A stretch of DNA of 64,000 bases, taken from contig JAJEKV010000092.1 of assembly GCA_021234155.1 (NCBI GenBank), positions 2,304,561-2,368,560 on the forward strand. Reading direction: 5' to 3'. Numbering within the stretch: position 1 is the first letter of the stretch; the number at the start of each line of letters is the position of its first letter. A model generated the notes under the pieces. That model made no database searches. It saw only the letters and a program-made list of their open reading frames with translations, and was not told where the DNA came from. The position numbers and the translations under genes are program-made. The DNA is from Isoetes taiwanensis. Its lineage: Eukaryota; Streptophyta; Lycopodiopsida; Isoetales; Isoetaceae. This document shows positions 11,001 to 63,830 of the stretch, one piece after another.

Positions 11001-14000
11001 AAGTTGGCGGACTTGTTAGATTACTTCTTTTCATTCGATTGGATTATTCCTTGGAGGTACTAGCTTTATACATGGTCAACAATTATCCTAGTAATGATTC
11101 CTTCTTAGCGAGGTGATGGGTCTCGCGAAGTGGTTTCAATATGTTGGATGTTTGTTAACAATCATGTATAATTTTAGTTACTCCTATGCATTTCCTTCCC
11201 AATCGTTGGACGCTTAGCTCAACTTGGGGCAATCCCTTCATGAGAAAATCTAGAAATGCCTTCCACTCCCATTATGGATGTCGTCATCCATAAGCCTCAA
11301 TCTTGCTTTCATGACTCATCCACTCATTTGCCTTCTTGAGAGTAACGTTCTTGAGTTGCTTTCGAGACTCAGGAACTCCTCCTCGATGTAGAGGTCAACT
11401 TTCCTCGATGTAGAGGCTTCCCATTGTTGGTGGTTTTGATGGCGTAGTTGACCACTTGAAATCTTCTATGTTACTTCCCAAAAGCCTGAAGGTGGTTTCA
11501 TTGAGAAACATCTTGGCGGCTAAAAGATGCCTCTAGATCCGATCTTATTGTGCCAACTCCATCCTTGAGTCTGTGGCGTGTTGTGGACAAGTGTTGAGGA
11601 TGTTGCTCGCTTCACGCCTTCCAATTGTCCGGCATCTCTTTTCTTTGATCTGTTATACTGAGAGAGAGAGGAAATAACAAAGGGAAATATGCATGCAAGT
11701 CATATAGCTTACACTATTATAATTACAAATACTATTAAAGCTATTAGGCTCCCTTGGTGTCTCCCCTCGAGGTGCTGCGTACTTTATGGCGTTGTTGTCG
11801 ATGTTCCTCCTAGTCTTGGTGGTGTTGAAGATCTATATCCTCCTATTTATATGTCATTTCGTGCTTTCGATTGGTAGACTCTTTGATATTTTTGAGCTCT
11901 CCAATGTAATGCGTATTTGCGGCACAACTTGCTTACGCTTCACATGCTAACTAAGGATGTGATGGTCGTTGATGCTTGATTCAGGTCTACTTCTTAATGT
12001 TGTTCTGGGCAATAATTGCTTCCCCTTCACAATGTTTGAAGATCTTTGGGCGCCTCTTAAAGTTGTGCACAATCCCTTTGGCTAGACTTCGTAATTAAGG
12101 AGTTGTTCTCTTCATCGGTTGCCTTTCGAATTGTCGATCCTTGAGTTCCGCGAAGTTGCATGCGGTTGTCGTAGCTTTGTGAGGTTCTCTAGCTGATTCG
12201 TCGATTCTTTGGCTCGGTTCTCCTATTCGCTTCTCATCATTACTGTTTGATCTCCTCAATGTGATGGCTTAGGCGTTATCACGATCTTCGTTGCTATCTT
12301 TGCCTTCTAGTTGCACTTGATCACGCTCCACAGTTTTGGACCTCATGTTGCATCTAAGGAGCTCGTGGAAGTACTAGCACTCCTTCGTCTTCTGGTTTAT
12401 GGCCATTGTCCCTCAATACATGTGCATCTTCCTGGCGAGTAAAGCCTCATGACTCTTCTCCATGATTGGTTTGCTGTCGGGGATGATGTACTCTTATATC
12501 TAGCGTAGATTGACCCTTGAGTTGAAGTACTTTACGCCCTAGACTGCTTTCGTGTCCTTGAATAGCCCGGCTAATGTCTTGAACTCTCTTTTTTGTCGAA
12601 GGTGCTTTGATTGCTGTCCTTGTCGTTAAGGTGTCGAATGCTTCTATCTTGGGCGTTGAGGTCCCTCGTGTCGGAGATAAGTTGGGCTTCTTGTCTTCTA
12701 ATTGTTGGTAGGAGTACTTGACGAAGCCATCACCTAGTTGTTGAATGAGCATAGACATAACCCATTGTTGTGGCGCCTTTCTTAAGTGTATCTCCATCTG
12801 GTGTACATGTTACAAACATCACCATACAAGGTAGAATTATGGTCGTCGAAGGTTGCCTCCTTAGTTGGCTCGTTGATGTCGAGTTGTCCCAAGGAATTCC
12901 TCGACGTCTATTGGCTTGAGGTCGTTGTCGTAGTTTCTGAAGATGTGTGTTCGTTCCTCCTTACATTTGTTGAGGACACTTTCGTGTCGTTAGTGTTCTT
13001 TGCTGCTACAAGAGGTAGAGTTGCATCCAGAAGATGTCGTCGTGCAAAACCTAGATGGTGCGGCGCTAGAGATCTTGACATGGTGGCGTTATCTCTCATC
13101 TTGACATTGTGCTGGACGAGCGATCTTCTACTTGAGGCCGCTTCTCGAAGTGTCTGGAGTTGAAGCTTGGCTTGAGCTCTGGTCTTCTCTCTCTACTTGC
13201 TCTTCCATTCGACACTTGCTCTTGGCCTATACCTGTGGTTCTTTGCTTCATCCTTTGGCAGTCGAAGCGATGGAGTTTCTTGATGCAACACTAAACCCTA
13301 AAACGTGATCCTAATTTTGTACTATGTGTTAGCTCAGATATTTATGATAGACATACATATATAATTATCTTTGGGATTTTAATTCATCCACTTTTCTAAT
13401 TTATAGAAGAGCATATGCTTAATTGTGTATACTTCTTTAGGATTTTCCCTCCTCCAATCACGTTTGATTCTTGGTTTCTTTGCATCTTCCTTGTTCTACT
13501 TGACTCGGGGTTCCTTGAGGTGTTTGATTGTAGTTGACCTTCCGTGTGTGATTTGAGGTCGTTATCCCAAGTCGCGGAGAGCGTTGCGTTTCGGTGTGAA
13601 CCCTTGAGTTGAAAATGCTCCTCCTTAATGTGTTTACCTGTCATGTGGAGTGTCATTTGGAGATCGCGTAGCATTGATCCGGCGAGTACGATCACTTAGT
13701 TGTTGCAAATCGGGCATTGTTGCATGTCTTTGAATCTTCGTTGAGATGCTTCCCCTATGCACCGGAATTGTTGTCATCTCCATTGCACATGCCATCACTC
13801 TTTTTGAGTTGCGTTTGAGTGGTGCGTGGTTGTTGGCTAGGTTGGCTCCTTTCGTCATTTGTCGTGCTCTCTGCCTCCCCGCCTCCTCTCTACGGTTACG
13901 ATTGCAGCCCTATGTCTTCGGGTTATTCGTCCACGGTAATGCTATCATCTCCACAGTAGTGTAGAACATGAACTTAGGAGATGTTACGTTGATCTTGCCT

Positions 14001-37018: not shown

Positions 37019-38245
37019 CTAGGAACTATCATGCTTACCTAGAATATAATAACAATGGGAAGGAAAATAGACAACTGCTTTAGGCAATGAGATAGAATCC
37101 AAGCTATTACAAACCTTACCTGGGATTCGCACTATAGAAGCTTCCTGAGCACCATCATGTGGAGCTTCTGCGGCGTAGATAATCGTTTGGTGTCGCGGAA
37201 GATCCGTTATTGTGGCAGCTCTAACTTCACCACTTTGTGGCCTTCGCTCAATAGTCCTATCATCTGCATCCGATCTTTCTTTCGGCTGACGCTCCCTTTG
37301 ATTCCATCGAGGCTCTCCACGACCTCTACCTTCACCAACATTTGGATTGCGATTAAATCTCCCTCCTCCCATGCTACCAAGTGGGCAATTATTCCTTGAG
37401 TGTCCAACTTCTCTACAACGGAAACAACGCCTCTCTTCAAGGCACCGTTGTCTTTCCTCATCAGTGAGTGGCGATAACAACTTACTCCCAGTCTGGATGC
37501 TACTTGCCCAACTCCTGTTATTACTTTGAACTTCCACAGATTGACTAGCATATGGCTCTTCTCTAAATGATCGCCTCCGACTATATGAATTCTCAACTGG
37601 CCAAGAGGAAGATGCTTGTCTCTTCCTTTGCGTATCCACTGCAACTTTTTCTGCCAAGTCTGCTTCCCGATTTTTGGCAATTCTTACTACCTCTTCTAGA
37701 TCCGTATATGCCACTCCAGACATGGTACTTTTGATATCAACATGGAGTCCTTTCACAAATCTGGCACACATCTTAGCTTTATCAAGAATAGGACAATGTG
37801 GTTGCAATCTTCTAAACTTTTCATTGTATTCTGCCACGATCCCTGTTTGCGTATATCCTGGAGGTGTAAAATGTCCCTCAAAGGCCTTTTTGAACTCTTC
37901 CCACGTTGCTTGGCCAGGTCTCTTATTCATGTCAGTTAGGCAAGTCTCCCACCAGACTCTTGCAAAACCTCCTAACATTGCCTGAGCCAGAAGAGCTTTT
38001 ACGGAATCTTGTGCCTTGATCAAATCAAAATAGAACTCCACTCCACGGAGCCAAGCATCAGCATCATCCCCTGTTGTGTTTTCTCCTATAAAAACTTCCC
38101 TTTTGGTGTCCTTTAACACCTTTTCAATTGCTTTCTCAGCCTCGGTCTTTTGCTGTGACACACTTTGCTGCAGAGATTGCTGAATAGCTTGCAGGATATT
38201 AGTTACATCTTGAGCTCCATCTCCACCTGCACCACCAGCATCCAT
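37019..38245 (-). CDS. gag: Gag protein of the gag-only LTR element
   Basis: A single frame of 408 residues begins at the ATG at 38245, 96 bp inside the primer-binding site, and runs to a stop at 37019. It starts with a glutamine-rich helix (about residues 10-45). The Retrotrans_gag core of Ty3/gypsy type follows (about 50-200), including DADAWLRGVEFYFDLI, ARVWWET, TWEEFKKAFEGHFTPPGY and FRRLQPHCP. Next come a basic, serine-rich linker and a CCHC zinc knuckle, CFRCREVGHSRNNCP (about 275-290). The tail is rich in arginine and glycine and suits RNA binding. The expected role is particle assembly and RNA packaging. The frame looks whole. No pol follows, so the protein could act with enzymes from another element. 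Confidence 0.93.
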   Translation of the reverse strand: MDAGGAGGDGAQDVTNILQAIQQSLQQSVSQQKTEAEKAIEKVLKDTKREVFIGENTTGDDADAWLRGVEFYFDLIKAQDSVKALLAQAMLGGFARVWWETCLTDMNKRPGQATWEEFKKAFEGHFTPPGYTQTGIVAEYNEKFRRLQPHCPILDKAKMCARFVKGLHVDIKSTMSGVAYTDLEEVVRIAKNREADLAEKVAVDTQRKRQASSSWPVENSYSRRRSFREEPYASQSVEVQSNNRSWASSIQTGSKLLSPLTDEERQRCLEERRCFRCREVGHSRNNCPLGSMGGGRFNRNPNVGEGRGRGEPRWNQRERQPKERSDADDRTIERRPQSGEVRAATITDLPRHQTIIYAAEAPHDGAQEASIVRIPGKVCNSLDSISLPKAVVYFPSHCYYILGKHDSS

Positions 38246-38340
38246 GATCTCCTATTACTCTGCAATTAGACAATAGGAGCATTAATAACTCACTTCAAGA
38301 ACATGAATCATTTCCAAATTCCCCTTTAAGATCAAACTTG

Positions 38341-48984: not shown

Positions 48985-49130
48985 TAGAATAGATTTTTTA
49001 ACGTCCACGGAGACCAATAGGTCATGGGACCCATACAATGGGCTAGTACAATCATTACTACAATGAGACAGTTTGTCTCATTGCTATATATCATATATCG
49101 GGCAATTATACCTGGACCTAGCACTTATAC
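48985..49130 (-). mobile_element. LINE-like 3' tail
   Basis: TTTTTTAACGTCCACGGAG on the plus strand resembles the tail near 23740 and, more loosely, the LINE tail at 1100. The sequence to its right is cut by the large TIR element and may resume after 62793. Confidence 0.35.
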
Positions 49131-49161
49131 ATTAGGGCGGATTTGGGGTCTGAAAATGGCC
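49131..49161 (+). repeat. Left terminal inverted repeat of the 13.7-kb element
   Basis: It begins ATTAGGGCGGATTTGG and ends GAAAATGGCC. It is identical over 31 bases to the reverse complement of 62763-62793. Confidence 0.95.
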
Positions 49162-49496: not shown

Positions 49497-49806
49497 TGTC
49501 TCCTGTAATTTACGTGTTCTTGCCCCATTTCTGAACTCCCATGGTCAAGAAGTGGGAGGTTTTGTCTCAATAGGTTCGTGGGTGAGTATGCCGCCATCAA
49601 CGAGGGGCGAGCATAGAGTTAAGCGACAAAGGCGATCAGGCGTCTTGCGGACACATTGGATAGGTAGGATAAAAGAGTTCAAGTTGAATTCTAGCGGTAG
49701 GGAAAGTGGAAAGTATAACAATACGACATGCATATACCCCTTCCGATATGGCCAAAGAGCTAATCTCCACCAAAAACAACTTCCCAAAATTGCCCGCAAA
49801 TGGTAA
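49497..49806 (+). pseudogene. Cargo gene A, unknown
   Basis: This is a coding-like region between the left end and the first 66-bp inverted repeat. Open pieces occur in more than one frame; the longest ends at 49806 and is basic in its second half (HRVKRQRRSGVLRTHWIGR). No family is recognised. Its end lies 12 bp before the inverted repeat at 49819, in keeping with the pattern of the other cargo genes. Confidence 0.3.
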
Positions 49807-49818
49807 CCACCTTAAACG

Positions 49819-49886
49819 GATCACACGACCTTGAAGCTGGCCGTCGACTACTTAGCCGCGTAGAGATAGTTTCGCGTCGTATGATC
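49819..49886. repeat. 66-bp-class inverted repeat 1
   Basis: The arms are GATCACACGACCTTGAAG and TTTCGCGTCGTATGATC, and the whole is 68 bp. It follows cargo gene A. Confidence 0.85.
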
Positions 49887-50119
49887 TTCTTATCTTTTCA
49901 TTTCTTTTCGTTGACACGTGTTTACAAACAAATTTATTGTGCGGGTTTATGTTTATCGACGTGGTGGATGTCATTAGGCGAAAAGTATTAGTAGTGTACT
50001 TGTCGTGTATCACATAGACATCGGAATTGTCCTTTTCCAAGGTATGGATGCGTGACCTTGTGGGGTATAGGCATCTGGTTTTCTGGACATGATTATAACG
50101 TAAAGGTCAGAAACCGAGC

Positions 50120-50796
50120 TTGAGGCCGGTTGAATTGCCCCCTTTAAGTGAACTTTGTAAGCCACAGACTAATGAGAACAATGTAATTGCAATGAAGAAA
50201 TGCATGGCCGACGAGGTGCAAGCGGGAATGTTTGAAAACGGAGGCGTGAGGATGAGTTTCAAAATCTTCACACCGTTTGAGGTATTTGCTAACATATTCC
50301 GATGATGGCGCGGGAAGTTGAAAAGCTCAAGACATATCGTGCTTTTTCCCCCCTTGCCGATTTTGTGGATGGCTTATTTTTGGTTCCGACCTGGGATGTT
50401 CGATTCCACTAATCATCAGGTCAACTAAGAGGTCCGCGTAGTTAAGTCCTCCTTTAAGTTCGGATACTTTCTTCCAAAACAATATTTATCGTTAATTGTC
50501 AACTAGAACGAAGGAAACGAAAAAAAGAGAGGTCGCACAACTTTTTGGGAGCCGTTTGAGGACCATAACTTGAGACACTCGATGCGGTGGATATTCGAGT
50601 ATGGAGAGGGGTGGAAGTCATTTATACGCCACCATGGAAAGCGAATGGCCATTATCGAGCTAAGAGTGCTAATGGAGACAGAGGAGATTGCGGCGACTTC
50701 CATTATTTTATTGATGGCATTAGGGTTGGTTCTGGGCAAGAGGGAAATGTAAAGTTTAGTGAGTTCGCGATCAACAAGAAATTGTCTATCGGCTAA
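50120..50796 (+). pseudogene. Cargo gene B, unknown
   Basis: Coding-like stretches on the plus strand include NNVIAMKKCMADEVQAGMF and SFKIFTPFEVFANIF (50120-50305), then EVIYTPPWKANGHYRAKSAN and DFHYFIDGIRVGSGQEGNV (50587-50796). The base composition is gene-like, but I recognise no domain. It is not followed by a visible 66-bp repeat, unlike most neighbours; two copies of TTTTTAGGGTTCCGTA lie shortly after it (near 50840-50880). Confidence 0.35.
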
Positions 50797-50976
50797 GCGC
50801 TTTGAATCTCGGTTTTTTATTTGTGTTTTTGTCGATGTTTTTAGGGTTCCGTATTTTGTCCGATATTTTTTAGGGTTCCGTACAATTATTTAAAACGTTA
50901 CCATCATATTTTACTTTAACTTCATTTTTTACTATTTATCTCTTGCCGGTTGTCTATTTTTGTCGGTGTTAAGTAG

Positions 50977-50983
50977 TATAAAG
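50977..50983 (+). promoter_or_regulatory. TATA box of the H3-like gene
   Basis: TATAAAG lies only 20 bp before the ATG at 51003, so transcription would start at or very near the start codon. The other cargo genes have about 90 bp here. Confidence 0.45.
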
Positions 50984-51002
50984 CGCCATCATTTGAGAAG
51001 CC

Positions 51003-51927
51003 ATGGCAAGAACTAAGCAAACCGCAAGGATCCATCCAGTGGTGTAAGGCCGGTGATTACATTAGTCCGCCTTCTTCATCGACTCGAAGTCTCGATAGAG
51101 ATTCTCCTCCTCCGACCATGCCTAAGCGGAAGACCGGAAAAAGAAACCGCGCATGATGGGGCGGGAGAAGCAGCTCCGGAGTAAAGTAGGGAGGTGCACT
51201 CTGGTTCGAGACGAGGATGAAAATGTGAGACCGGCGAGCAGAATATGACGCCGGATTAATTATTGGGCAGCCGCCTCTTTCTTGCTCTTCCCCTCCTCTG
51301 TTCCTTACGTGGAGGTGCGGGACCTTCAAATCAAAGGAGGAGGCCCAACGCCGAAAGGGAAGGCGATCAGGAATGTGAGGAGGCGGTAGGAAGAGTCGGG
51401 CCGAGGAACGGCCGGCAGATCTTTGGGGTGAGGAGGCGGCCGGAAGAGTCGGCCGAGCAACAAAGGCTCAAATCTTTGGGGTGGGTGAGGGTAGTGGCGG
51501 GGCGTTTTAAGACGAAGCTCGGCATTAAAAGCGCTTCCACGAGATTAAGAAGTATCAGAAGAACTGAGCGAGATGGTCATTCCGTCTCCCATTTGCGGGC
51601 TCGCGTGAGAGATTACGCAAGAGTGTGGTGCGATACATCATACCGATATTGAGAATTCAAGCAACCGCCTTTAAATGCTCTTCAAATGGCAGGAAGCGGT
51701 TGGTGTCGGGCGTTTCGAGGACTCATGACTTTGCAAAGCAATACATGCCAAGCGGGTGGTGTCATGCCCAAGGACATACTCGTCTTACGCATAAGGGATC
51801 CCGAAAGTACTATGGTCAAAATTTTATGGCTGAATACAACAAGAAGAAAGACCCCCGAGAAAAAGGCCGTGAAGTGCCTTTTGTGTTTTTCATATGTATA
51901 ATATTTCTTAATGTAATGGCTTTATAA
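51003..51927 (+). pseudogene. Degenerate histone-H3-like cargo gene
   Basis: The start at 51003 reads MARTKQTAR, a perfect match to the first nine residues of eukaryotic H3 including lysine 4. Downstream, separate short segments resemble later parts of the H3 fold: a LREI-KKYQ-like stretch near 51540, a NALQMA stretch near 51675 (helix 2), and MPKDILVLRIRD at 51764-51799, close to the H3 C-terminal MPKDIQLARRIRG. The region between is long for an H3 gene and no single frame covers it, so this is a fossil. It lies inside the TIR element, after a TATA box and before a 66-bp inverted repeat, so it is cargo and not a host locus. Whether it derives from canonical H3, a CenH3-like variant or a virus-borne histone cannot be told. 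Confidence 0.6.
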
Positions 51928-52004
51928 GCTTAATCTCTTAGTCCATTTCTTTCTTAGAAGCCTAGCTTCGCACTTTGTATTTTTTTTTTTAATGTTATAC
52001 GTGA

Positions 52005-52070
52005 GGATCACCTGACATGACAAGCATTGTGCTTTTTGTTGCACATAGTAGTCTTGGCGTCGTGTGATCC
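52005..52070. repeat. 66-bp-class inverted repeat 2
   Basis: The arms are GGATCACCTGACATGAC (degenerate) and TTGGCGTCGTGTGATCC. It starts about 80 bp after the end of the H3-like region. Confidence 0.75.
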
Positions 52071-52098
52071 AACCCTAACCCTAACCCTAACCCTAAAA
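52071..52098. repeat. Short telomere-like repeat (AACCCT)4
   Basis: Four units of AACCCT, the vertebrate-type telomere unit and not the common plant type with three A, directly abut inverted repeat 2. AAACCCTAA-like boxes are also known promoter elements of plant genes for translation and replication, so it may belong to the promoter of the next cargo gene. Confidence 0.85.
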
Positions 52099-52227
52099 TG
52101 TGCGGACAAATCTCCCCCCTTACAACGTGTGTCCCCTTTCATAATCGATAAGCGGCTACTTGAGTTCAAAAGTGATGCGCCTTTACCGCTCCTAAACATC
52201 TTCTTGTTTTCGTCGTTTGCTTCGCCA

Positions 52228-53200
52228 TGGATTGTTATGTGAAGTTCCTGGAATGGTATGCATCCGCCCCTCATGACAACGAGGAAGTTGCGCCGACTGC
52301 GATTTATCCGTTCTATTGCAAGGAGTTGGACATCATGGCAAGCGATGTAGCGAGCTTGGATGCTATCGCGAGGTTGCCTTAGCTTTCACCTGGACCGCTT
52401 GGTCTCGGCCAAGACGTCCTTTGCGGATGTCCGGCTCGTGGATTCCAAAACCAGCTCTAGAGGGAGGCAGCTTTCCATTTGCAAGCAGGGAAGATGTTTT
52501 TCAAGAATCTGCCGCATAGCGGGCTCCTCTCCGGCTGCGTCCTTGTGCTTAAGAAGGTATCTTATTTCTCTTTGCCGTTTGCATTTGCTAGTTATTGCAT
52601 TACCTTTCGCCACCAAACCAGAAGATATACTTTGGAAACAATGAAATCTTTAAGCCAAGGGGGGTTAGGTTATGTGTGATGATGATCTGACTATGACGTA
52701 GAAATGGAGATAGATCTACAAGAAGAAGAGCAAGAATGTAGGAGTTTTAGCTTGACGACCGGCCTTGGGTGAACGGAGGAGGGAGATGATTCGAAGGTGA
52801 TGAGGATGGGGATGAGGATGAAAAGAAGTTGTCGACATAACGCCAATTTTAGTGGAAGGCAAAGAATACTTATTGCTAAGTGATATCTTGAGGAACCCGT
52901 CTTTGTTACGAATGTGTGCTAGGGAAGACGAGCTTATCGATTACCTTGGCGAATGGGTAAACTTAGGCCTAGATTTTGAAGAGGATTTGGACAAAGAGAT
53001 GTTTGAAGTGTCTAATTATACAAGCAATGCTATAAAGCTTAAAGAAGCCTATGAGAGGCTGGAGTCTCGATTTGCTCAAGATGAGGCGAATCTACCAAGC
53101 GGAAGAAGAATTCCAGCGTCTCAGGTGCAAAGCCGCCAACAGGATCTGAGGTTTGGCAGGCCCTTTGATCAATCAGCAAAGCATAAGCCTGGTAGATGAG
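52228..53200 (+). pseudogene. Cargo gene D, unknown
   Basis: An ATG at 52228 opens MDCYVKFLEWYASAPHDNEE, followed by coding-like stretches in changing frames. A clean final open part at 52852-53199 contains KEYLLLSDILRNPSLLRMC and YLGEWVNLGLDFEEDLDKEM and is acidic and probably helical. No family is recognised. There are several frame changes. It ends 39 bp before the start of the next open region and has no inverted repeat of its own. Confidence 0.35.
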
Positions 53201-53238
53201 GATAAATGTGAAGAAGGGTTCTTATTTGTGGGAAGTAG

Positions 53239-53630
53239 ATGATTTTTCTTGCCGACATGCACGGGGACAGGGAAAGATTGAAGGACTCTACATTGTTACG
53301 ATATATCTCAAGATTCGTTAATGGGGAGATAATCGTCTTATTGAGAACTTTCGGTCAAAAGGTGCGTAGAGTTTGTCTATTACATCCGTGCATTATGCAT
53401 GTTCGGGAACCATTCCCAATTGGCATCAAACACCGAAAGGGTGATAGCAATTCGCGAGGATGTTGTGTTACAATATTTTGACGACCAAGCGGTCTTGGGC
53501 GAGCAATATGTTAAATTTTTTAGGCTGGCTTGACTCACCCAAGGTTGGAGATAAAAAGTCGATAACATGGAAGTCATTGCCTTGTTGGATCGGTCGCGGG
53601 GGATTGAAAGAGTATGAAATTGACAATGAA
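53239..53630 (+). pseudogene. Cargo gene E, unknown
   Basis: An open region starts at the ATG at 53239 (MIFLADMHGDRERLKDSTLL), continues with YISRFVNGEIIVLLRTFGQK and VRRVCLLHPCIMHVREPFP, and then continues coding-like in another frame to about 53630. I do not recognise it. The inverted repeat at 53738 follows about 110 bp later, in the usual position. Confidence 0.35.
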
Positions 53631-53737
53631 GCTTGAGAAATTGGAAGTTATATGTTTTCCAACTTGTATCGGTAAAATTATTTATGTACTGATTGTCCTT
53701 CCGAAATTCCTAATAAAAATTATTTTATTTGTATTTA

Positions 53738-53803
53738 TTCACATCACGCGAAATACATCGATCGATTTTTCTGTCATATCTAGGTTTTCGCGTAGGTGTG
53801 ATA
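53738..53803. repeat. 66-bp-class inverted repeat 3
   Basis: The arms are TTCACATCACGCGAAA and TTTTCGCGTAGGTGTGATA. The changes relative to the consensus partly preserve pairing. It follows cargo gene E. Confidence 0.8.
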
Positions 53804-53894
53804 TCTATCTCGAAGAAATGAAATATTATTGGAAAAAGACAATTAATTTATTTATTCCTCACACGGCCGAGAAGCAACTTCGTGCGACTCATGT

Positions 53895-53903
53895 TATAAA
53901 TAG
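53895..53903 (+). promoter_or_regulatory. TATA box, tandem gene 1
   Basis: TATAAATAG lies 93 bp before the ATG at 53988. The same box, followed by AAGACC, precedes tandem gene 2. Confidence 0.7.
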
Positions 53904-53987
53904 AAGACCGATGTCCACGCCGACCTCCGTCGCCTTCCGCCTTACGCTCATCTTCTACTTCCGGCTTCCGCCTTCCACCTACGCTCG

Positions 53988-54400
53988 ATGGCATCATCAT
54001 CTTCCTCTAGCAGTGACCACGCCAAGATAGCACTCCCCTTGCCCCCGAGCTGCCGTGGACATCACCCTTGCGGTGGTGATGAAGAGATTCAAGGAGATCC
54101 ATGATGAAAACAACCGCCTCACGTCGCCAGAGAACAATGGCGGTCGGCGGATTAACCTTCACGAGGGGAGCTTTGCCTGGCGAAGACGTTGAGCTCGTGG
54201 AAACATTCGCCATGTACCAGAGGCTGGCGGCCGCAGGCCGAGGCAGTTGAAACTGCTCACATGATTTCGCAGGCCTTAGAAGATATGGAGAAGAAGCTCC
54301 GTTTGCGGAGGATGAGAACGCTGACCTTCACGGCTTTTGCCGGGACATGAAAATCAGCTAGAGGATCATGAAGATCCCTAGCCGTTGTATATCAAATAGT
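53988..54400 (+). pseudogene. Tandem cargo gene 1 (MAS family)
   Basis: This is the first of four related tandem units. The ATG is followed by a serine-rich start (MASSSSSSS). Nearby, in another frame, is DITLAVVMKRFKEIHDENNR, the family's core segment, predicted helical or coiled-coil. The 3' part (GAAGATATGGAGAAGAAGCT and GATCATGAAGATCC) is shared with gene 2. I know no named family with this core. The frame is broken. The unit is bounded by its own TATA box and an inverted repeat at 54562. Confidence 0.55.
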
Positions 54401-54561
54401 GATTTTTATAATCTGTATTTATTACTCAGAAGTAATCAAACTCTTAACTACCGCTTCCGGAGATCCCAGGATAGAATAAAATCAGCTTCAAAGAAAAGTT
54501 TTCTCTATTTTTTGCTTCTATCTATCCTGTTGTTCCAATGTATGTTCTGTTTTATTAAAAT

Positions 54562-54626
54562 ATCACACGACGCGAAATGCCTTGCTTGCAATTAGGTAGC
54601 AATCAATGGATTTCGCGTCGTGTGAT
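54562..54626. repeat. 66-bp-class inverted repeat 4
   Basis: This is the best-preserved copy. The arms ATCACACGACGCGAAAT and ATTTCGCGTCGTGTGAT are perfectly complementary. The centre contains TGCAATTAGGTAGCAATCAA, shared with repeat 5. It follows tandem gene 1. Confidence 0.92.
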
Positions 54627-54866
54627 CTCCATGCCGTTCTATTTTGCTTCAATGAGAAGTTCTATCTTTAGTTATGTATCAGTAAAATTACTTATGTATA
54701 GATTGTATCATAAAATTATCAATAAAATTATCACACGAGCTTTCTACGGAAGAAAAGGCGTTAGAAAAGCGGTCCTTTTTCCTCACCTGCGGCGCGAAGT
54801 AAGCGGTCGATTTTCGACCCACGGCATCCGGCGTGGTGTGACTCAAGCTACTACGAAATCCTCAAG

Positions 54867-54875
54867 TATAAATAG
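54867..54875 (+). promoter_or_regulatory. TATA box, tandem gene 2
   Basis: TATAAATAG lies 179 bp before the ATG at 55046. The leader is longer than in the other units because a pyrimidine-rich segment (CTCTTCCGCCTTCCGCCTTA type) is duplicated in it. Confidence 0.65.
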
Positions 54876-55045
54876 AAGACCTTCTATCTTGCCTTCGACC
54901 TCCGATCCTCTTCCGCCCTTCCGCCTTACGCTCATCTTCTCCGCCTTCCGCCTTCGCTTAAAGCCTTCTCCTCCGATCCTCTTCCGCCTTCCGCCTTACG
55001 CTCATCTTCTCCCCTTAGCCTTCGCCTTCCGCCTTCTTCTCCTCG

Positions 55046-55420
55046 ATGGCATCTTCATCCTCCTCCGATAGGCGGCCCGCGCCCAGAGCTGCCCGCGGAC
55101 ATCACCCTTCTTTGTGGTGATGAAAGAGATTCAAGGAGGTTCCGCAGCGAAAACGGCCGTCGTCGCCCGTAGAAGATGGGAGGATTGGACGGAGTTAGAA
55201 TTCACGCGAGGGGCTGCTGCATGAGGCGAGACCTTGAGCTTCAGCGGCAACATTAACCAGTACCGGGGAGGCCAATAGCCGTAGGATTGAGGCGTTTTAG
55301 CGCACACAATATTCGCGCAGCTAGAAGATATGGAGAAGAAGCTTTCGGCTGAGGAGGATGAGAAGCAGCTTTTGCTTTCACGGCCTACTCTGGGATCATG
55401 AAGATCCGTAGCCATTGTAT
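55046..55420 (+). pseudogene. Tandem cargo gene 2 (MAS family)
   Basis: This is the closest relative of tandem gene 1. It has a MASSSSSDRR start, the stretch ELPADITLL-VVMKEIQ in adjacent frames, and the same 3' block ending at GATCATGAAGATCCGTAGCC. The two units also share their promoters and terminal inverted repeats, so the whole transcription unit was duplicated. The frame is interrupted. No function is recognised. Confidence 0.5.
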
Positions 55421-55494
55421 ATATATTTTTGTTTCAAAGAAAAATTTGCTCTGTTTCTTGCTTCTATCTGTTCTCTTGTTTTGTTTTATTAAAA

Positions 55495-55560
55495 GATCAC
55501 GACGCCTTGAAATGCCATTCTTGCAATTAGGTAGCAATCAATGGATTTCGTCGTATGATC
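55495..55560. repeat. 66-bp-class inverted repeat 5
   Basis: The arms are GATCACGACGCCTTGAAAT and ATTTCGTCGTATGATC. The centre is nearly identical to that of repeat 4. It follows tandem gene 2. Confidence 0.85.
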
Positions 55561-55935
55561 TCCACAACGCATACACCTCGTTGTATGTATAAATTCATAA
55601 TTTATTAATGGAAAAGTATATGTAACACAAATATCTAGCTAGATTATGTGATAACTTGCGGGTAAATCTAATTTGCATGTGGATGACAACGTCTATTCAC
55701 ATCGTGGCTTTGTGGATGACAACGTCATGCCAAGGGCGTGGCATCTTATTTGCCACAATAACCTTGTCTTTTGTGCGGCCGCATACATGATGCGGCTAGG
55801 GGATATGCCGGATCCCATGATGCGAACATAGGCTACCGTTGCCTAATTGCATGCTATAATTTAAGCCTCGTAGGATTATTACACAACTTTATCGGTTTTC
55901 ATCGCAACCGTAGATTCCAACGTATCTCTAGTTTC

Positions 55936-55943
55936 TATATAAA
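55936..55943 (+). promoter_or_regulatory. TATA box, tandem gene 3
   Basis: TATATAAA lies 97 bp before the ATG at 56033. Confidence 0.6.
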
Positions 55944-56032
55944 ACGCCGGAGGCCTTTGTCTTCTCCTATCCGCCATCTCTGTTTCTACCACATCAGCCC
56001 TCACCATCTCTCTCGTTCTCCCATCACTTTCA

Positions 56033-56580
56033 ATGGCCTCGGCTCAGTTCCATCCCTGTAGAGATCTTGTCTCAAATTTTGGTCAAGGAAATTGAGAACA
56101 TTCGCGTCTTTGAAGCGGAGGGAACGGATCCGCCTTCTAAAAGAAAAGAATGATGAAGACGCCGCCAAGCTGGTTGCGGCAGAGAGGAAAAGGCCGCCTT
56201 TCTGAGGAGGTGATTTTAGTGCGCCGACAATCACGGCTGCCTTAGACCGCTAATTGTGCAGCCACGAGAGATATAACCTCCAAGAGAGCGTGAGGGCGCA
56301 AATCGGGGGGAGAAGCTGCCCGAGCCCAACTTCGATGGCGGGGAAGATAAGGTTGCGGAATATGAGAGCGTGGTTGCGGGCGGGCAATCATGTTGGAGGA
56401 GCGAAAAAAATTATCCCGCCCTCGGAAGAGCTTGCCGGCGATCATAGGCATCGGGCTCCTCCTAGAGGGGCCTTTTTTTTAATGTTTGTAATTGGTTTTA
56501 TTTCTCAATGGGAAAAGTTTTTGACAAATGTGCGAATATTACGTTTCCTATTTTTAATTTTCAATATCCGTGGTAGAGAA
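56033..56580 (+). pseudogene. Tandem cargo gene 3 (MAS family)
   Basis: This is a more distant member. It has a MASAQFHPC start and, in another frame, PVEILSQILVKEIENIRVFE, which lines up with the DITLAVVMKRFKE core of gene 1. A lysine- and glutamate-rich stretch follows (SKRKE). The unit keeps the order TATA box, ATG, core, inverted repeat (56592). The frame is interrupted and the function is unknown. Confidence 0.45.
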
Positions 56581-56591
56581 TGACAAAGACG

Positions 56592-56657
56592 GATCACCAC
56601 TGAGCGAAACCCTTCATAGGGTTTTAAAGCTCGTGTGCGATTTCAGCGTGGTGTGAT
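56592..56657. repeat. 66-bp-class inverted repeat 6
   Basis: The arms are GGATCACCACTGAGCGAAA and ATTTCAGCGTGGTGTGATA. They differ from the consensus, yet still pair well with each other. It follows tandem gene 3. Confidence 0.8.
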
Positions 56658-56794
56658 ATATGATGTAGTTAGAATAGTTATTAATGTGTTCCAAATGACG
56701 TTACCATTAATGTGTTCTAGCGGACAACCCGAGAATCCGGCTTCGACCGTCACGGCGGCCGAAAGTGTGTTTAATATGTTGAAGCGCTAATATG

Positions 56795-56802
56795 TATAAA
56801 TT
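56795..56802 (+). promoter_or_regulatory. TATA box, tandem gene 4
   Basis: TATAAATT lies 92 bp before the ATG at 56887. Confidence 0.6.
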
Positions 56803-56886
56803 GAGGTCCTTGCATTGTGCTCCTTAGCCGGTTAGAGTCTTTGCTCCTCACTTCTATAATCTTAACGTCCCTCCCATTTGTCATCT

Positions 56887-57357
56887 ATGGCCTCCACATC
56901 CTCAACCGCCGATAATGGAAAACGAAGAGGATAGAACTCCCTCCCCGACATAGTGTTGGGTGTTCTAATGAAGAGGTTGAAGGAGCAAGATGATCTTCTA
57001 AAGGAAAACGCCGTTACAATTCAGCAGAAAGAAGAAGAGAATGAATTCAACCTTCTCATGCTTCGTAGCCAGGAGAGGCAAATCAGGCGGTTGAATAGAA
57101 GGCTGGACAGGATGACATGCCCCAACAACTGCACTGAGGTGGTTATGACGGCAACGAGGATGCTAATTCAAAGCGTAAGAACACGTTGTGCTATTGGGAC
57201 AGAGCCGGGACATGTACAAAGAGATGGTGGACGATTGGAGGAACGTTTGGATAGGGTGATTGCTCGCTTGAGGGGAAGAGATGAAGACGAAGACGAGGAC
57301 GGAGCTGATGATGATGATGAAGATAATGAAGAAGAGCTCGCACTGGAGCAACAATGA
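56887..57357 (+). pseudogene. Tandem cargo gene 4 (MAS family), coiled coil with acidic tail
   Basis: This is the best-preserved member. The ATG at 56887 starts MASTSSTADNG; the long open part at 56953-57357 (134 residues) begins VLGVLMKRLKEQDDLLKENA in the position of the family core. It continues as a strongly heptad-like coiled coil rich in E, Q, R and L (about residues 5-60), has two cysteines in MTCPNNC, and ends in an acidic tail (RDEDEDEDGADDDDEDNEEE). A coiled coil plus an acidic tail is a layout seen in histone chaperones and transcription cofactors. With an H3-like gene in the same element a histone-related role is conceivable, but this is only an inference. The start and the long open part are not in one frame. 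Confidence 0.55.
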
Positions 57358-57439
57358 GTCGTTGTATTTTGTTTTTCAATGTAACATCTTTCACAACTTT
57401 AATCAAAAGTAACCCTTTTTTATTATTATCTTGTAAAGC

Positions 57440-57507
57440 TTCACACGACGCGAAGCCACATAAATGCAAGCAATAGCGAACTCCACTGTGCTCGCTACCG
57501 TATGATC
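57440..57507. repeat. 66-bp-class inverted repeat 7
   Basis: The arms are TTCACACGACGCGAAGC and GCTCGCTACCGTATGATC. It starts 83 bp after the stop of tandem gene 4 and is directly followed by repeat 8. Confidence 0.82.
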
Positions 57508-57514
57508 TAAAATA

Positions 57515-57582
57515 AGATCACACGACGCGAAGCTACAGTTGTGCAAACAAGGTTGGAGGCAAGTACTTCGCGTCGTGTGAAC
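57515..57582. repeat. 66-bp-class inverted repeat 8
   Basis: The arms are GATCACACGACGCGAAGC and ACTTCGCGTCGTGTGAAC. It is 7 bp from repeat 7, and it faces the 3' end of the convergent minus-strand transposase-like gene. Confidence 0.9.
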
Positions 57583-57793
57583 ATGCTACACATTACAAGT
57601 ATACTTTACCGATTCTTTGTCTCTTAGATCTCCACTGTTGCGATGCTAGTGGGGCCCTAGAATTTTGCCAAGCAACTTTCCATTTCTCTTGACATTATGC
57701 CAATGGTGTTTACGACTTCTGGGTTGCTCCTTAAAGCGACCTTCTTGTCGTATTTAGCCATCGCCCTTCTATAAAACCACTCTGTCATCTGTC

Positions 57794-60290
57794 TTAGAGG
57801 GTTGGTTCCCACATTTCCACCCTTCTTTGAGTGTTACGATGAAAGGCTATTTTAGCTTGTTTATGCGACTTCTCCATGCCTTGTGCACTCCACACTACTA
57901 GGCTTCCATACTTCCTAAAAAACCAAGGTGCATGAGCCCAAAAGATGTGCAAGTAGTGCGTGACTTCACTCTCTCCCCATGCGTCTATGAAAGCTTTAAT
58001 AAATTTGTTATTCCGGCTTGCGAACATTTACGCATCTTCTCTCTTGAGGTCCATTCTCACGAATATATGGGAACAATTCGGACAATGCATCCCATTTTTT
58101 TTTTCCTCAATGCCGAGCGAGCATGCATCTCATGCGGTCTCGCTCGCATCAACCGGCAATTTTCCAAATTCATAGACCTTTTCTCCCATCGGTTTCCGTT
58201 CGAGCCTCTCTATGATTCTTTATGAAGCGTCGAGCTTTCACCCTCAATTGACACCTTACGAGGCACACTTGTTCTTCCCCGCCCGTTTCTCATCGAGCTC
58301 TAATCTTACATTGCCACCATGCAAACACGCATACGATAGAACATGTTCAACTCTAATTCCTTCCTCTCTTCTCTTCTTGTGCGAAATGTTCCACACGAAT
58401 CTGCAGCTCAAAAATATCATCTTGTCGATGATTCTCACAAAGCCGTGCAAAGTGCAGATATGAACCCTCTCTAATGGAATGGGGAAAATGCCATGGAACT
58501 TGGGATCTTCTTCTCCTCTATTAGGAGCATTTGCTTGGTTAAGGGACAAGGTTGAGCTTGATCTTCCCAAGACTTGACTTCCTTTGCATGATTGCGATCT
58601 GCATGACAACTTTTGCATGTTCCTTGTCCTCCTCCACTTATGTTGTACATTGCTTTCTCAGTTTTTAAATCAGACGCCAAGTGAAAAATTACTTTGTAAG
58701 ATCCATAGTGATCTACTTGCAATTTTTCCCCTCCCTCGAATCTAGATATTAGACTCGGGATGTCAGTTTGATTGAACACCCATTTCAATACCTCGTGGGT
58801 TTCTTTCTGAACTTTAAAGAGACCTAACCACCGTGTGTCATCTTGATTGACATGAGAACCATTTTTCCGCACGCTTCTTCTCCTCGTCAGTCACCTCTAC
58901 ATCTTTTTGTTATTCTTGTTGATCTTTGATTTAGCATGTGCAATTGCATTCTCAATTGCTCTATTCATGATGACAACGGATACCCTCTCATACTTCTCAA
59001 ATTTGGTCGGGTTCCATTTCATCCAATTTTATGCAAACTTCAATCTCACCATTAGTTTTACGCGAACTGTTAAGTCATAATATTTGACAAGGAATTTTAA
59101 GAGAGTAATCAGGTCAACCCAAAATTATTATTGCGTTCATTCATTCCAACTATATCACAACAATCCTTGCCATTCTTATCTTTTTATGGCTATGGCGGGA
59201 CAAAGACATTCAACGTGGTGCATCTCTCCTAATATGGCATACACCATCTTTGTCCTAGTAACCCTTGTATTCTCGACAATTTGTGGACGTGGAGCTTAAT
59301 ACTTTTTTTTGTGCCCATTCTTTTCAACGCGCCGTGGAATGGCTTGAATAGAGAACGGTAACCAAGCCTACCGATGCCTACATCATCACAAGCGGTCACG
59401 TACATCCGCCGCTTCTAACTTCTTGTAGATCTCCCTAGTACCATTTCCAATACCATCTTCTTGAGAGGAGAGTTGTAGGGTGACAAATCATGTCCACTAT
59501 CTCCCTGTTCGTCGCTAGGTTCTTCACCACGTAACCAAGATTGCTTCTAGTTTCCCCGGATCTTAACCGGCCTTTGCTAGTGTTGTAAAGCGGACCTTGT
59601 GGCGTGACCCTGGTCTGAATGCACCTGATCCAAACTTCAGTTCCTCTATCGATTCGATAATGCTTCTTCCTTTCTACTAAGCCAAGGGTGTTTTCTTCAA
59701 ATTCTTTAACCTACATTGAAGCCCAAAGTTTGCTCTTTCGAGCTCTTGGATCTTTTCTTGCAGCTGCCCTATCACCAATTTGGACTTGTCCACTTCGTAT
59801 CTCAAAGAAGTTTCCCTCCCAAGCCGTCATTCCTTTCCTTCATCACAGTGGAGTAATGAAGCGAGAGAAAAAAGAGTCTGCTGGTTTAAGTTATAATTCT
59901 CTTGTGACAATGGGCGCGGCTCATCTCAAGGAATCTGTATTCGATTCGAATGCCTTCATCTCTCTCAATCTCTCACAATATCCCAAGAGGCCGAGAGTTA
60001 CCGTCACCACAAAAATCGGACTAAACTTGAAACGCCCCGAAATGGCGGTTTCTTGCCACTCAACGGATCCAATGGATATAAAGCGCCATCCGCCCGGATG
60101 TCGACACTTTTTGAGCACGCAGGCGCAACATGTCGAGTCTAAGTTCTTATTTTTTAGACCTCCTTTTTTGCGATTGAAGACTGGAGCATATTCATGAGTC
60201 AGTTGGATCCTTATCCACACATCATTTGGAGCTTCCATACAGCGTGGATGCGACGGCGCGAAATGAATGAATGTGTACAATTTGTATGCC
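57794..60290 (-). pseudogene. Transposase-like gene
   Basis: Read leftward, coding-like pieces include YCERLREMKAFESNT near 59950; WLGLFKVQKETHEVLKWVFN near 58820; a probable zinc-binding stretch GGGQGTCKSCHADRNH near 58610; ERVHICTLHGFVRIIDKMIF near 58450; and, at 57794-58027, SEVTHYLHIFWAHAPWFFRK then YGSLVVWSAQGMEKSHKQAK. The set (C-x2-C-x-H, LH-x-x-x-R, YLHI-x-x-H, a late E-x-x-H) is what I remember from long transposase-like proteins of uncertain superfamily in many eukaryotes. It is the only enzyme-like gene in the 13.7-kb element, so it is the likely source of mobility. There are several frame changes, so it is dead. Inverted repeat 8 lies about 210 bp past its end. Confidence 0.5.
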
Positions 60291-60858
60291 CCACAGACAA
60301 TTAAGCCGTTTGAGGCTCGGTCCGTACTAACCTCGTTTTTGAAATTTTACAGCGTGCATATGGAAATCAAAAGTCCATTCTCCTACAATCCATGCTTTTA
60401 TACAAAAGCAAATTCAAAATTGAATTGTAGGGGCGGGAAGCCTTTTTGTATTGGGATGAAGTAAAGATCCGATTCACGAACTTTTAAGGCGCTAATCGCA
60501 GCCGCCATAAAACGAAAAGTCTAATACAAAGCTTCAACCTACACATTCAAATTTTGAAATGTAGAAAGCGGGGAATGGACTCTAAATGAAAAAAAATAGG
60601 GCAAGACAAGAATCGGTGATGCATGATTGGTATCGACAAACCAAGAGACACCACCGTCATGAGTTGCCGGTATGCTATAATGCAAGTGGCTTTTTAGAAG
60701 CGCCACGTGTTAAGGCGTCAATCTGTCTCGACAACAAGAGAATTAAATACATATGGCGCCATAGATATCGATTCCCCTTATTAGGAGAATATTCCAAGCA
60801 AATCGGCCGGGGAAAAAGGGGGAAATATGACGTGGAATGGCTGATAGGAGGCCATTTT
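60243..60858. repeat. Direct repeat, internal copy of the right subterminal region
   Basis: About 0.5-0.6 kb is repeated at 62253-62778. Landmarks are CATATGGAAATC, TACAAAGCTTCAACCTACAC, GTTGCCGGTATGCTATAATG and ATATGACGTGGAATGGCTGA. This copy stops at GAGGCCATTTT, just before the final 25 bases of the TIR, so it is an internal, decapitated copy of the element's right end. Confidence 0.85.
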
Positions 60859-60966
60859 AGTTCATAAAACATAATATAACTTGGAATGATAGATATTTTA
60901 TATGCAAATGGGAGACTATTGTGAGGGACTTGTGTTTAATTTTAATTTGACAACAAATAAGAAAGT

Positions 60967-61031
60967 GGACACGATGCGAATTTAGTGTGTTCCATTTTTG
61001 TTGCATATGTACTATTCGCTTGGTGTGATCC
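60967..61031. repeat. 66-bp-class inverted repeat 9
   Basis: The arms are GGACACGATGCGAAT and ATTCGCTTGGTGTGATCC. It lies between the internal end copy and the small minus-strand gene at 61400-61753, beyond that gene's 3' end. Confidence 0.78.
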
Positions 61032-61399
61032 TTGAAAAATAATATGCTCTTTGAAAAGGGATAATGACTTATGTACTTAAGAGTGGTAACACATGTACAA
61101 TAAAAAAAAGTTAGGTATTCAAATGGAATTAGAAGCAAAAACTTTTTACATTCAAAATTTTTTATGGCCGTATGGCTTTACATCATTTTGTAAATTTAAA
61201 TGCCCGGAGGCTTCAACTATTCACAACAAAAAGCCGGGAGGCTTTGGTCATATGGTAAGAAGCTGGAGGCAAGCTCGACTAAGAACAAGGAAAAAAAAAT
61301 AAGAGGTGCTCTGCCCTAACAAATTTCATTCATCTGCTTCACCATCTGCAAAAAAAAAATAAGAAATAACCGTTAGTTGAATGCTTAAGAAAAGAAAGA

Positions 61400-61753
61400 A
61401 AACATGCATGTACCATGAACTAACGCCATGAGCTCCTCGAAGTCAGCAGATTCGTCTTCAACTTCTTCATCTTCTTCATCATCTTGGCTTCTTCTCCGTC
61501 CGGTAGACCACTCATTTTTCTGAAGAATCTCCTATCCACCTTCAAGAACACTGTGATGAACTCCTGCTCCGAAATTTCCTCGATTCCTCATTCTCGATTC
61601 CTCGTCAAAGGAATCGGAGGAATCGAGGAATCGAGGCATTGAGCAAGAAGCAAGAAGGTGGGTGAGGAGGGAACTCCGGAGGGAACACCTCTTCCGGCCG
61701 TAATAATAGCCTCTTGGAGGACACCTCGGCTCTTCCGTAGCTGATCTCTTCAT
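61400..61753 (-). pseudogene. Small cargo gene with acidic C-terminus
   Basis: The ATG at 61753 opens a 73-residue frame (MKRSATEEPRCPPRGYYYGR, a basic N-terminus). It continues in another frame as an acidic stretch (QDDEEDEEVEDESADFEEL, near 61430-61490). TTATATC on the minus strand near 61842-61849 lies about 90 bp before the ATG, the same spacing as in the tandem array. The basic start and acidic end resemble tandem gene 4 in style only. No family is recognised. Confidence 0.4.
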
Positions 61754-61942
61754 GGCGATGGACTAGAGAAATTGGGCGGAGGATCTAGCGAAGATTGGGC
61801 GGAGATTGGGGGAGAATGAAGCCAATCTAGGGCTGGAATAGATATAATTTGGATTAGGCGTGAAAATCATAGGAATGATTCGTATTTCAGTCCTATCAAC
61901 CATCATTACATGCCATTATGTGCATATCTCGAAATTTGAGCC

Positions 61943-62050
61943 ATATCTAATATCTTCCTTTTTTAACCTTATACCTAAATATCCAATATCTTCCTTTTTT
62001 AACCTTATTCCTAAATATCCAATATCTTCCCTTTTTAACCTTATTCCTAA
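61943..62050. repeat. 36-bp tandem repeat, about three copies
   Basis: Units of 36 bp (AATATCTTCCTTTTTTAACC type) follow each other with few changes. As 36 is a multiple of three, both strands read as 12-residue peptide repeats in open frames (NLIPKYPISSFF; NKVKKGRYWIFR). Probably only a satellite-like expansion. Confidence 0.9.
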
Positions 62051-62252
62051 ACCTATATGATTTGAGTTTAACCTGAAAATGAACACCCGATATAATTGAA
62101 TTTAACATACTATTTAATACCAAGATGCTACGCCACACTATGTCGATAATTGGGATTTAAAAAAAAAACACTCAAACCCTCCTCGAAAAAAACCACGAAA
62201 GTGCCGACCTTACTTGTGTTTAAGTTTAATTTGACAACAAGCAACTTCCATT

Positions 62253-62778
62253 GTGTAGATCGCGACGGCGTTGAAATCAAGGTGTGGTATTTTTATGCCC
62301 CAACACAATTAAGCCGTGTGAGCCGAACGTCCGATTTACTAACCGTTTTTGAAATTTGCAACGTGCATATGGAAATCGAAAAGTCCATTCTCCTACAATC
62401 CATGCTTTTATACATTAAGCAAATTCAAATTTCGAATTGTAGGGGGCGGGAAGTGATCTGATACAAAGCTTCAACCTACACATTCAAATTTTGAAATGTA
62501 GAAGGCGGTGACGCGCACGCTTACCAAGAGACTCCGTCATGAGTTGCCGGTATGCTATAATGCAAGTGGGCATTTTAGAAGCGCCACGTGTTGCATCAGT
62601 CCGTCTGACAACCAACAGAATTAAATACATATGGCGCCATGAATGTGCAATCCCCCTTATTCCGGAAGAATATTCCAAGCAAATCTGTAATTATGAGAGT
62701 TTGGTATCCTAGGTGGCATGGGAAAAAGGGAGCGGAAATATGACGTGGAATGGCTGATAGGAGGCCATTTTCAGACCC
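62253..62778. repeat. Direct repeat, terminal copy of the right subterminal region
   Basis: This is the second copy of the block at 60243-60858. It runs into the right TIR and so represents the functional right end. Confidence 0.85.
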
Positions 62779-62793
62779 CAAATCCGCCCTAAT
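62763..62793 (-). repeat. Right terminal inverted repeat of the 13.7-kb element
   Basis: It ends in CCCCAAATCCGCCCTAAT and is a perfect inverted match over 31 bases to 49131-49161. Confidence 0.95.
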
Positions 62794-63830
62794 GGTTGGA
62801 TTAGTACGACATTTATTATCTGTCCATTTCAGCCCCTTGTGGACACACAAATTTTTTTAGTCATGTAGAGTTAATGCCAAACGTCATTGCCATGTAATGC
62901 AAATCAGAAATCATTGCCATGTAACGCAAACCAATAGACTAAGGTCAAATTGATGCCCACCATGATTTGACTGGATTTTGCATTCAGACGATGCTGACTT
63001 TGGCGATGGAGGCTGAACAAGCAAAAAAGCAATATTGTCAATAAAATGTACCTAAATTCTACGAAAGATTTTAGCTTCCTAAACTTATTGCATTACATTT
63101 TGACAAATCAAACCCCCTTTGCACAAAATTGGAGACTTTACATTCCTTATTTCATATATCATAAGGTCAAAACACAACTAGCTGACTATGGAGCAACTAC
63201 ACCTCTAATTCATTGACAATGTAAACTATCCAAACTAAATATATGATGGAAACAAAAAATAAAGTAGCAAATATAGACTACAAGAACAAATTATAACAAG
63301 GTAAACATTACAAAAATCATAGAACATGCCAAAGATAGCAAAAAAATCCATAAAATTGGCCACAAACACTATTAAAAAGATCACAAACTCGTAATTACCT
63401 GACGCTCACCATCATTCTCCTTCTTCAGTGACATCCTATATTCACAATCAAATGTGCATCCTTTCTAGCCAGCATCGCAGACAAACATGCCCCAAACTCT
63501 AATTTCTCGTCTTCAATATCAAATCCAAAACAACTAATCTCCAAATTCCCACCTTCAATGCCAATTGGCCAAACAACCTCCGAAACAAGTAGTTTCCAAG
63601 CAAGACACAAAAAGCATTGTACTCTCCAGCTAACGATATATATGCTCTAGTTCTTTGCATTTATAAAAATACCTTTGCAATCTAGAAGCGAATTTTGTCG
63701 CATTTCTACAGACATTATATAAATGAAGAGGGAATCACAAAGTCAATCCCATGCTTGAATGGGGTCCACAACACTATCTTCATACATATTTGTCCATGAC
63801 AAAACGCATACTAATTGCTTTACTTTGCGC
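62794..63830. other. Stretch without a recognisable gene
   Basis: ATCATTGCCATGTAA-like phrases are repeated near 62880-62925. A minus-strand open stretch of 61 codons at 63425-63610 (MCLAWKLLVSEVVWPIGIEG) is not recognised. The sequence immediately after 62793 may be the interrupted right part of the LINE-like tail at 48985-49130. Confidence 0.35.

Follow-up and report, generated by a model that had tools for sequence, protein, structure and literature searches.

A large multi-gene element of the quillwort Isoetes taiwanensis, lying in a 64,000-nucleotide stretch of contig JAJEKV010000092.1 (positions 2,304,561 to 2,368,560; hereafter the window), carries a series of short palindromes of fixed length, most of them placed behind the 3' end of a gene. 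Taking this element together with a relative, C930, whose palindromes have different arms, a palindrome is found in 12 of the 13 gaps that hold a 3' end and in none of the five that do not (Fisher P = 7e-4). That this placement persists in an element whose arms differ counts in favor of a role at gene boundaries. We tentatively propose, with a probability of about 0.4, that the palindromes act as an orientation-independent gene-end boundary or terminator, bound by a protein that the element itself encodes. Our data mostly show that the carrier is a recently amplified DNA transposon of Isoetes taiwanensis, ~13-14 kb long, whose 32-bp ends are of the CATTAG type, which makes no target-site duplication and which carries genes for a RAG1-like transposase and a histone H3-like protein.

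The palindromes and their placement

The original prediction, made from the window alone, described nine inverted repeats of constant length with shared arms and variable centres, most of them following the 3' end of a gene-like unit, and found nowhere else in the window. The nine are real: the 16-base arm has nine matches in the window at up to three mismatches, where 0.13 are expected and at most one was seen in each of 100 shuffles. Eight of these matches are arms of six of the nine units (1, 2, 4, 7, 8 and 9, numbered as in the list below), the ninth is at 55811, and none lies beyond the element. A scan for paired arms recovered the units at 49819, 52006, 54561, 55493, 57439, 57516 and 60965, and also 55811; those at 53738 and 56592 have more mismatches than it allows and are visible in alignment and folds. 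Nine was nevertheless too few, as another unit (54783-54843) is clear in other copies of the element and a further one (55811-55877) is possible. The arms of the units at 49819, 52005, 55495 and 60967 are degraded in the window and cleaner in the other copies, so much of this degeneracy is probably assembly noise.

The constancy of length was also borne out. Among the 24 units with exact or near-exact arms in the window and the ten copies we analysed (fetched from 39 listed besides the window's own), the loop has 35 nt in 20 and 34 nt in four. In the whole assembly (1,658,258,908 bases in 1,110 contigs), a scan for exact palindromes with loops of 24-44 nt found 168 sites, and none in a reversed control; of the 50 listed, 49 measure 63 nt and one 62 nt. 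In all 50 the loop is that of unit 1, unit 4 or unit 8, in some cases with changes. An ordinary miniature inverted-repeat transposable element (MITE), which is likewise short with inverted ends, is ruled out by this result, since the 50 listed sites are not dispersed and share the loops of this element. Searching the genome with unit 4 and its flanks gave 810 first-look candidates, and all 40 that were scored, the window's included, match at 99-100% over the full 110 bases. Units 3 and 10, and likewise 4 and 5, derive from tandem duplication. No Rfam family reached its gathering score between 45 and 64 kb of the window.

Placement was tallied by hand, with the calls for genes F and I drawn from broken frames and those for D and E from their duplication. 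The window's element has a palindrome in seven of eight gaps with a 3' end and in neither of the two others; for C930 the figures are five of five and none of three. Two pairs of adjacent frames in C930 (8433-8796 with 8799-9243, and 9894-10554 with 10609-11206) were each taken as one gene; counted apart, they bring the tally to 12 of 15 gaps (P = 0.004), and counting AB as two genes brings it to 13 of 14 (P = 5e-4). The site behind 3' ends thus holds for most genes, in the second element too; the exception is AB, which unit 1 splits and whose own 3' end has no palindrome. Between the convergent genes G and H two units stand back to back, and in C930 a single array lies between two convergent genes.

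The features of the window's element are the following (palindromes have no strand).

49130..49161, + strand: left terminal inverted repeat, 32 bp, perfect inverse of 62763-62794
49543..49801, + strand: gene AB, first part, frame broken in the assembly; frame-tolerant alignment to the rightmost gene of C930 (41/87 identical, score 149; 10 shuffles at most 40)
49819..49886: palindrome 1, probably intronic, flanked by the first and second parts of gene AB
50108..50523, + strand: gene AB, second part (45/139 identical, score 122; 10 shuffles at most 47)
51003..51029, + strand: histone H3-type N-terminus MARTKQTAR, 9/9 identical; by score alone not above shuffles (43 vs at most 45)
51541..51798, + strand: histone H3 fold, by frame-tolerant alignment (49/86 identical, score 118; 12 shuffles at most 43)
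52005..52070: palindrome 2, 3' of the H3 gene
52071..52096, + strand: four telomere-type repeats AACCCT, by direct reading, adjoining palindrome 2; little changed among copies
52281..53479, + strand: gene C, matched pieces 52281-52655 and 53285-53479 (scores 71 and 91; 10 shuffles at most 37 and 35)
53738..53804: palindrome 3, 3' of gene C
53931..54392, + strand: gene D, small protein, tandem duplicate of E, by self-comparison and alignment
54561..54628: palindrome 4, 3' of gene D, near-perfect arms
54783..54843: palindrome 10, arms clear in copies, duplicate of palindrome 3
54985..55422, + strand: gene E, duplicate of D, by self-comparison and alignment
55495..55561: palindrome 5, 3' of gene E
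55811..55877: possible palindrome 11, weak, 9 arm mismatches
55940..56583, + strand: putative gene F, small protein, called from direct reading of the frames
56592..56659: palindrome 6, 3' of gene F
56935..57357, + strand: gene G, charged, probably coiled-coil protein, open frame; no Pfam family above cut-off
57440..57507: palindrome 7, 83 bases beyond the gene G stop
57516..57582: palindrome 8, gene H 3' end, near-perfect arms
57658..60280, - strand: gene H, RAG1-like transposase, frame broken in the assembly, ends by reading
60965..61031: palindrome 9, behind gene I
61386..62250, - strand: putative gene I, acidic small protein, 5' region copying that of gene H
62763..62794, - strand: right terminal inverted repeat, 32 bp, perfect inverse of 49130-49161; 22/32 positions as in the C930 repeat

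Shared arms around variable centres recur in the second element. We examined the 3' flanks of ten RAG1-like loci (of 70 listed) whose matched part is free of stops, and the two that best match the protein P0001, L056 (C930) and L058, have 67-bp palindromes with arms CGTGGCCACGGTGCGAA. In C930 the units have 33-bp loops and recur every 57 bp in arrays of up to about six, which sit 3' of the RAG1-like gene and 3' of genes on both strands; L058 has two consecutive units with other loops and the same period. The loops inside a single C930 array resemble one another, and the arrays are therefore tandem repeats and no CRISPR-like memory.

The element, its relatives and the assembly

The left end starts at the identical base in the window and in seven of the ten copies, the others (c4, c8 and c11) being without it. 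The flanks of the eight copies with two ends (window, c1, c2, c5, c6, c7, c9 and c10) show no target duplication, nor does C930, giving none in nine insertions. C930 is 12,956 bp long and also has 32-bp ends, of which 22 positions are common with those of the window's element (none of 100,000 shuffles did as well). Both elements contain AB, C, an H3-like gene and a RAG1-like gene, with the order of H3 and C swapped. The H3-like open frame of C930 reaches E = 1.9e-5 against a solved H3 over 57 residues, and in Pfam it hits histone only at 0.06, below cut-off; its alignment to the window's cassette B is not above shuffles (49 vs 48).

A foreign insertion in palindrome 10 of c11 (L047/L048) is flanked by the 8-base repeat GTCGTGTG, which we take to be of the kind made by hAT elements. 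Nested in it is a smaller relative of the element, which has the same ends and carries three consecutive unit-9 stretches; ATG stands at both sides of this relative, a match of 3 bases only. About 94 bases at 54391-54484 are present in the window's copy and not in the copies aligned across that place. Genes H and I share a duplicated 5' region (60232-60858 and 62245-62771), and a 29-base repeat (60928-60956 and 62212-62240) brackets palindrome 9 and gene I. Elsewhere in the window, we noticed by eye two long open frames, one resembling the reverse transcriptase of a long interspersed nuclear element (1519-2604) and the other a gypsy gag (37022-38251).

The product of gene H belongs to a family predicted to have the RNase H-like transposase fold of RAG1. 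In the 33-row family alignment, E464 and D508 are invariant and D411 is kept in at least 90% of rows; a last E, within QG.E.SH, is found in the window's frames and in the three rows that reach that far (P0023, P0024 and P0002). These residues may correspond to the catalytic D-E-D-E of RAG1. Searching PDB sequences with the 33-member profile gave no RAG1 and no Transib at E up to 10, the best Pfam hit of the family (E = 0.026) was nothing of the RAG1/Transib kind, and a protein search with a single 139-aa piece had no match. RAG1 and Transib elements have ends starting with CAC and make a 5-bp target duplication. Despite the predicted fold, the end sequence, the target duplication and the sequence profiles all fail to place the family in the RAG1/Transib superfamily, and we therefore call it RAG1-like without making it a member.

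RAG1-like genes gave 3,820 first-look candidates in one genome, of which 67 were scored. Among the ten loci with examined flanks, seven intact genes (L049-L055, with frames of 864-931 codons) have no CATTAG-type end and possibly belong to simpler elements of the same superfamily; an A+T-rich inverted repeat lies at least 735 bases beyond the stop of L054, and L057, whose frame is broken, has no palindrome. In two proteins of Adiantum nelumboides (P0041 and P0042), the annotation joins RAG1-like parts in one frame to a DUF7794 domain and a methyltransferase, which may reflect a fusion, a domestication or an annotation error. Among the papers listed for Transib in land plants, none is on a plant RAG-like element by title or abstract, and a search for RAG transposons in lycophytes gave none, which weakly supports their absence from the literature.

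The state of these sequences has to be read against the quality of the assembly. In the passages of the genome report that describe it, the published assembly comprises 204 scaffolds plus 909 unplaced contigs, 1658.30 Mb in all, and derives from Nanopore R9.4.1 reads that were processed with miniasm, racon and pilon (PMC8566536). The window's element differs from the ten copies by 4.1% substitutions, 2.6% deletions and 2.5% insertions, mostly of single bases, and the copies differ from one another to a similar extent. A ratio near 1:1 is also seen in the one young repeat pair we compared outside the element (54 mismatches and 45 gap openings), and less so in older pairs. Differences between copies are three times denser at CG sites than at positions at least 5 bases away from a CG, and within the palindromes they concentrate in the CG-rich arms, mostly sparing the loops. 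Nanopore errors are expected at methylated CG. From this clustering and the abundance of indels between copies, we infer that much of the apparent decay, many broken frames included, is assembly noise at CG sites that are probably methylated. The noise is local, since intact open frames are present elsewhere in the genome. Where young repeats in this assembly have broken frames, these should hence not be taken as decay.

Possible roles of the palindromes

The fixed spacing, the conserved arms, the symmetry and the loops without clear structure point to half-sites in DNA rather than to an RNA hairpin, and the position behind genes points to a function at gene ends on either strand. We imagine two inverted half-sites of ~16 bp, 33-35 bp apart, to which a dimeric or tetrameric protein would bind at the DNA level. 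This protein would probably be encoded by the element, because the arms are specific to each family around a common GCGAA. The bound complex would stop or insulate transcription, keeping tightly packed genes from reading into each other, and being symmetric it could serve genes on either strand.

Several observations weigh against this proposal. Units other than 4 are no better kept than the element as a whole (3.6-22% vs 9.2% differences per base), and errors at CG may account for their poor conservation, which gives no sign of constraint. The loops of C930 have a weak folding signal (P = 0.024, from repeats that are not independent). Palindrome 1 lies in what is, judging by eye from splice-like sites, probably an intron of AB, leaving the 3' end of that gene without a unit, and palindromes 4 and 5 are each followed by an additional one (10 and 11, respectively). 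The distance from stop to palindrome varies from 83 bases in G and ~76 in H (by reading) to ~350 in I. Finally, the ~1 kb examined downstream of each of the seven other intact RAG1-like genes contains no such palindrome.

Transcripts could instead finish, like those of mimiviruses, in a long RNA hairpin that undergoes cleavage and polyadenylation, an explanation that we find unlikely. It fits the site at 3' ends and the folding of the units, which in the window's copy is better than that of shuffles (z from -7.0 in unit 4 and -5.3 in unit 8 to -1.2 in unit 7), and there is a precedent in the mimivirus transcripts described as ending at hairpin-forming palindromes (PMC4402537). Yet the fixed-length loops have no clear conserved fold (in the window's family, no excess folding, Fisher P = 0.42, and no conserved loop structure), arrays with a 57-bp period are unnecessary for cleavage, and none of the frames scanned with Pfam was recognised as an RNase III or a poly(A) polymerase. 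It is rather unlikely that the palindromes are internal sites, comparable to the subterminal TNPA sites of CACTA elements, at which the transposase or an accessory protein would bind for transposition or self-regulation. Family-specific arms, arrays and an element-encoded RAG1-like protein would suit such sites, and within the 17.7 kb around C930 every one of the 19 CACGGTG/CACCGTG heptamers falls in the arrays, CACGGTG being the start of a Transib end. However, the units spread across the whole element and not close to its ends, the arm is absent from the element's own 32-bp ends, and the arm of the window's family lacks the heptamer.

Rearrangements bear on whether the palindromes are recombination sites, similar to attC or to recombination signal sequences (RSS), at which the RAG1-like enzyme would shuffle gene cassettes. 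Such an enzyme is present, the spacer length is fixed and the two elements have H3 and gene C in different order. Counting every break of at least 300 bases in the ten copies (26 sides), nine sides lie no more than 75 bases from a palindrome (4.3 expected), and three are inside one (1.4 expected). But two of those three are the ends of the single foreign insertion of c11 in unit 10, the third lies in the nested relative with its repeated unit-9 stretches, and the duplication of D and E breaks outside a unit. At the five large deletion or duplication junctions (56536/58330 in c1, 54699/56767 and 59555/62454 in c4, 55937/50384 in c10, and 53266/54516 in c11), none of ten sides is in a palindrome and four are within 75 bases. 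The break pattern does not demonstrate site-specific recombination, but its mild excess nearby lends the explanation some probability, though we consider it distinctly unlikely. A still more daring version, which we consider improbable, is that of a lycophyte superfamily of giant transposons with a RAG1-fold enzyme and RSS-like sites at cassette ends, by means of which their genes would be assembled, lost or reordered. If true, plants would have a cassette system similar to V(D)J that brings along a histone H3 of its own and, in one family, has the Transib-type CACGGTG heptamer in inverted arms of fixed spacing. That the palindromes are passive, satellite-like repeats without function, spread with duplicated gene units, seems to us very improbable. 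Tandem duplication did produce 3/10 and 4/5, and spacers are alike within one C930 array, but most loops look unrelated while arms and spacing are fixed, and two elements with different arms place them similarly.

Known systems and significance

The gene-end punctuation proposed here resembles integrons and mimiviruses in layout only. Like integron attC sites, the palindromes are imperfect, stand behind genes and have conserved arms around a variable centre. The attC reading raised in the original prediction is not supported, as no tyrosine recombinase was recognised and the five large junctions avoid the sites, though the fuller count of break sides leaves some chance of a link; also, the quillwort genes lie on both strands and the host is a eukaryote. 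As in mimiviruses, palindromes terminate gene units, but by the definition given for mimivirus 3' palindromes their sequence is not conserved (PMC4402537), whereas the quillwort arms are conserved within a family, the loop length is fixed, one family has tandem arrays and no viral gene was recognised in the frames scanned. A virus as the carrier was rejected: there was no match to viral contigs by protein or exact palindrome, and none at E up to 1e-3 among viral structures (best 7e-3). CACTA (En/Spm) elements have subterminal TNPA sites, and here too a large plant DNA transposon contains many copies of one short motif in either orientation, with the difference that the quillwort motifs are paired at a fixed distance and sit at gene ends across the element.

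By predicted fold, the closest relatives of the transposase are RAG1, ProtoRAG and Transib. The quillwort family differs from them in having no sequence-profile match to RAG1 and none in Pfam, a long N-terminal helix that is probably a coiled coil, ends in CATTAG instead of CAC and no 5-bp target duplication, and in being part of a multi-gene element of a lycophyte. Insertion without target duplication, two diverged versions of an H3-like gene and gene-punctuating palindromes with family-specific arms are further features of the element. To our knowledge, RAG1-type recombinases have been discussed almost wholly as an animal story; a transposase family with a predicted RAG1 fold in a vascular plant bears on the origin of this fold and of V(D)J recombination.

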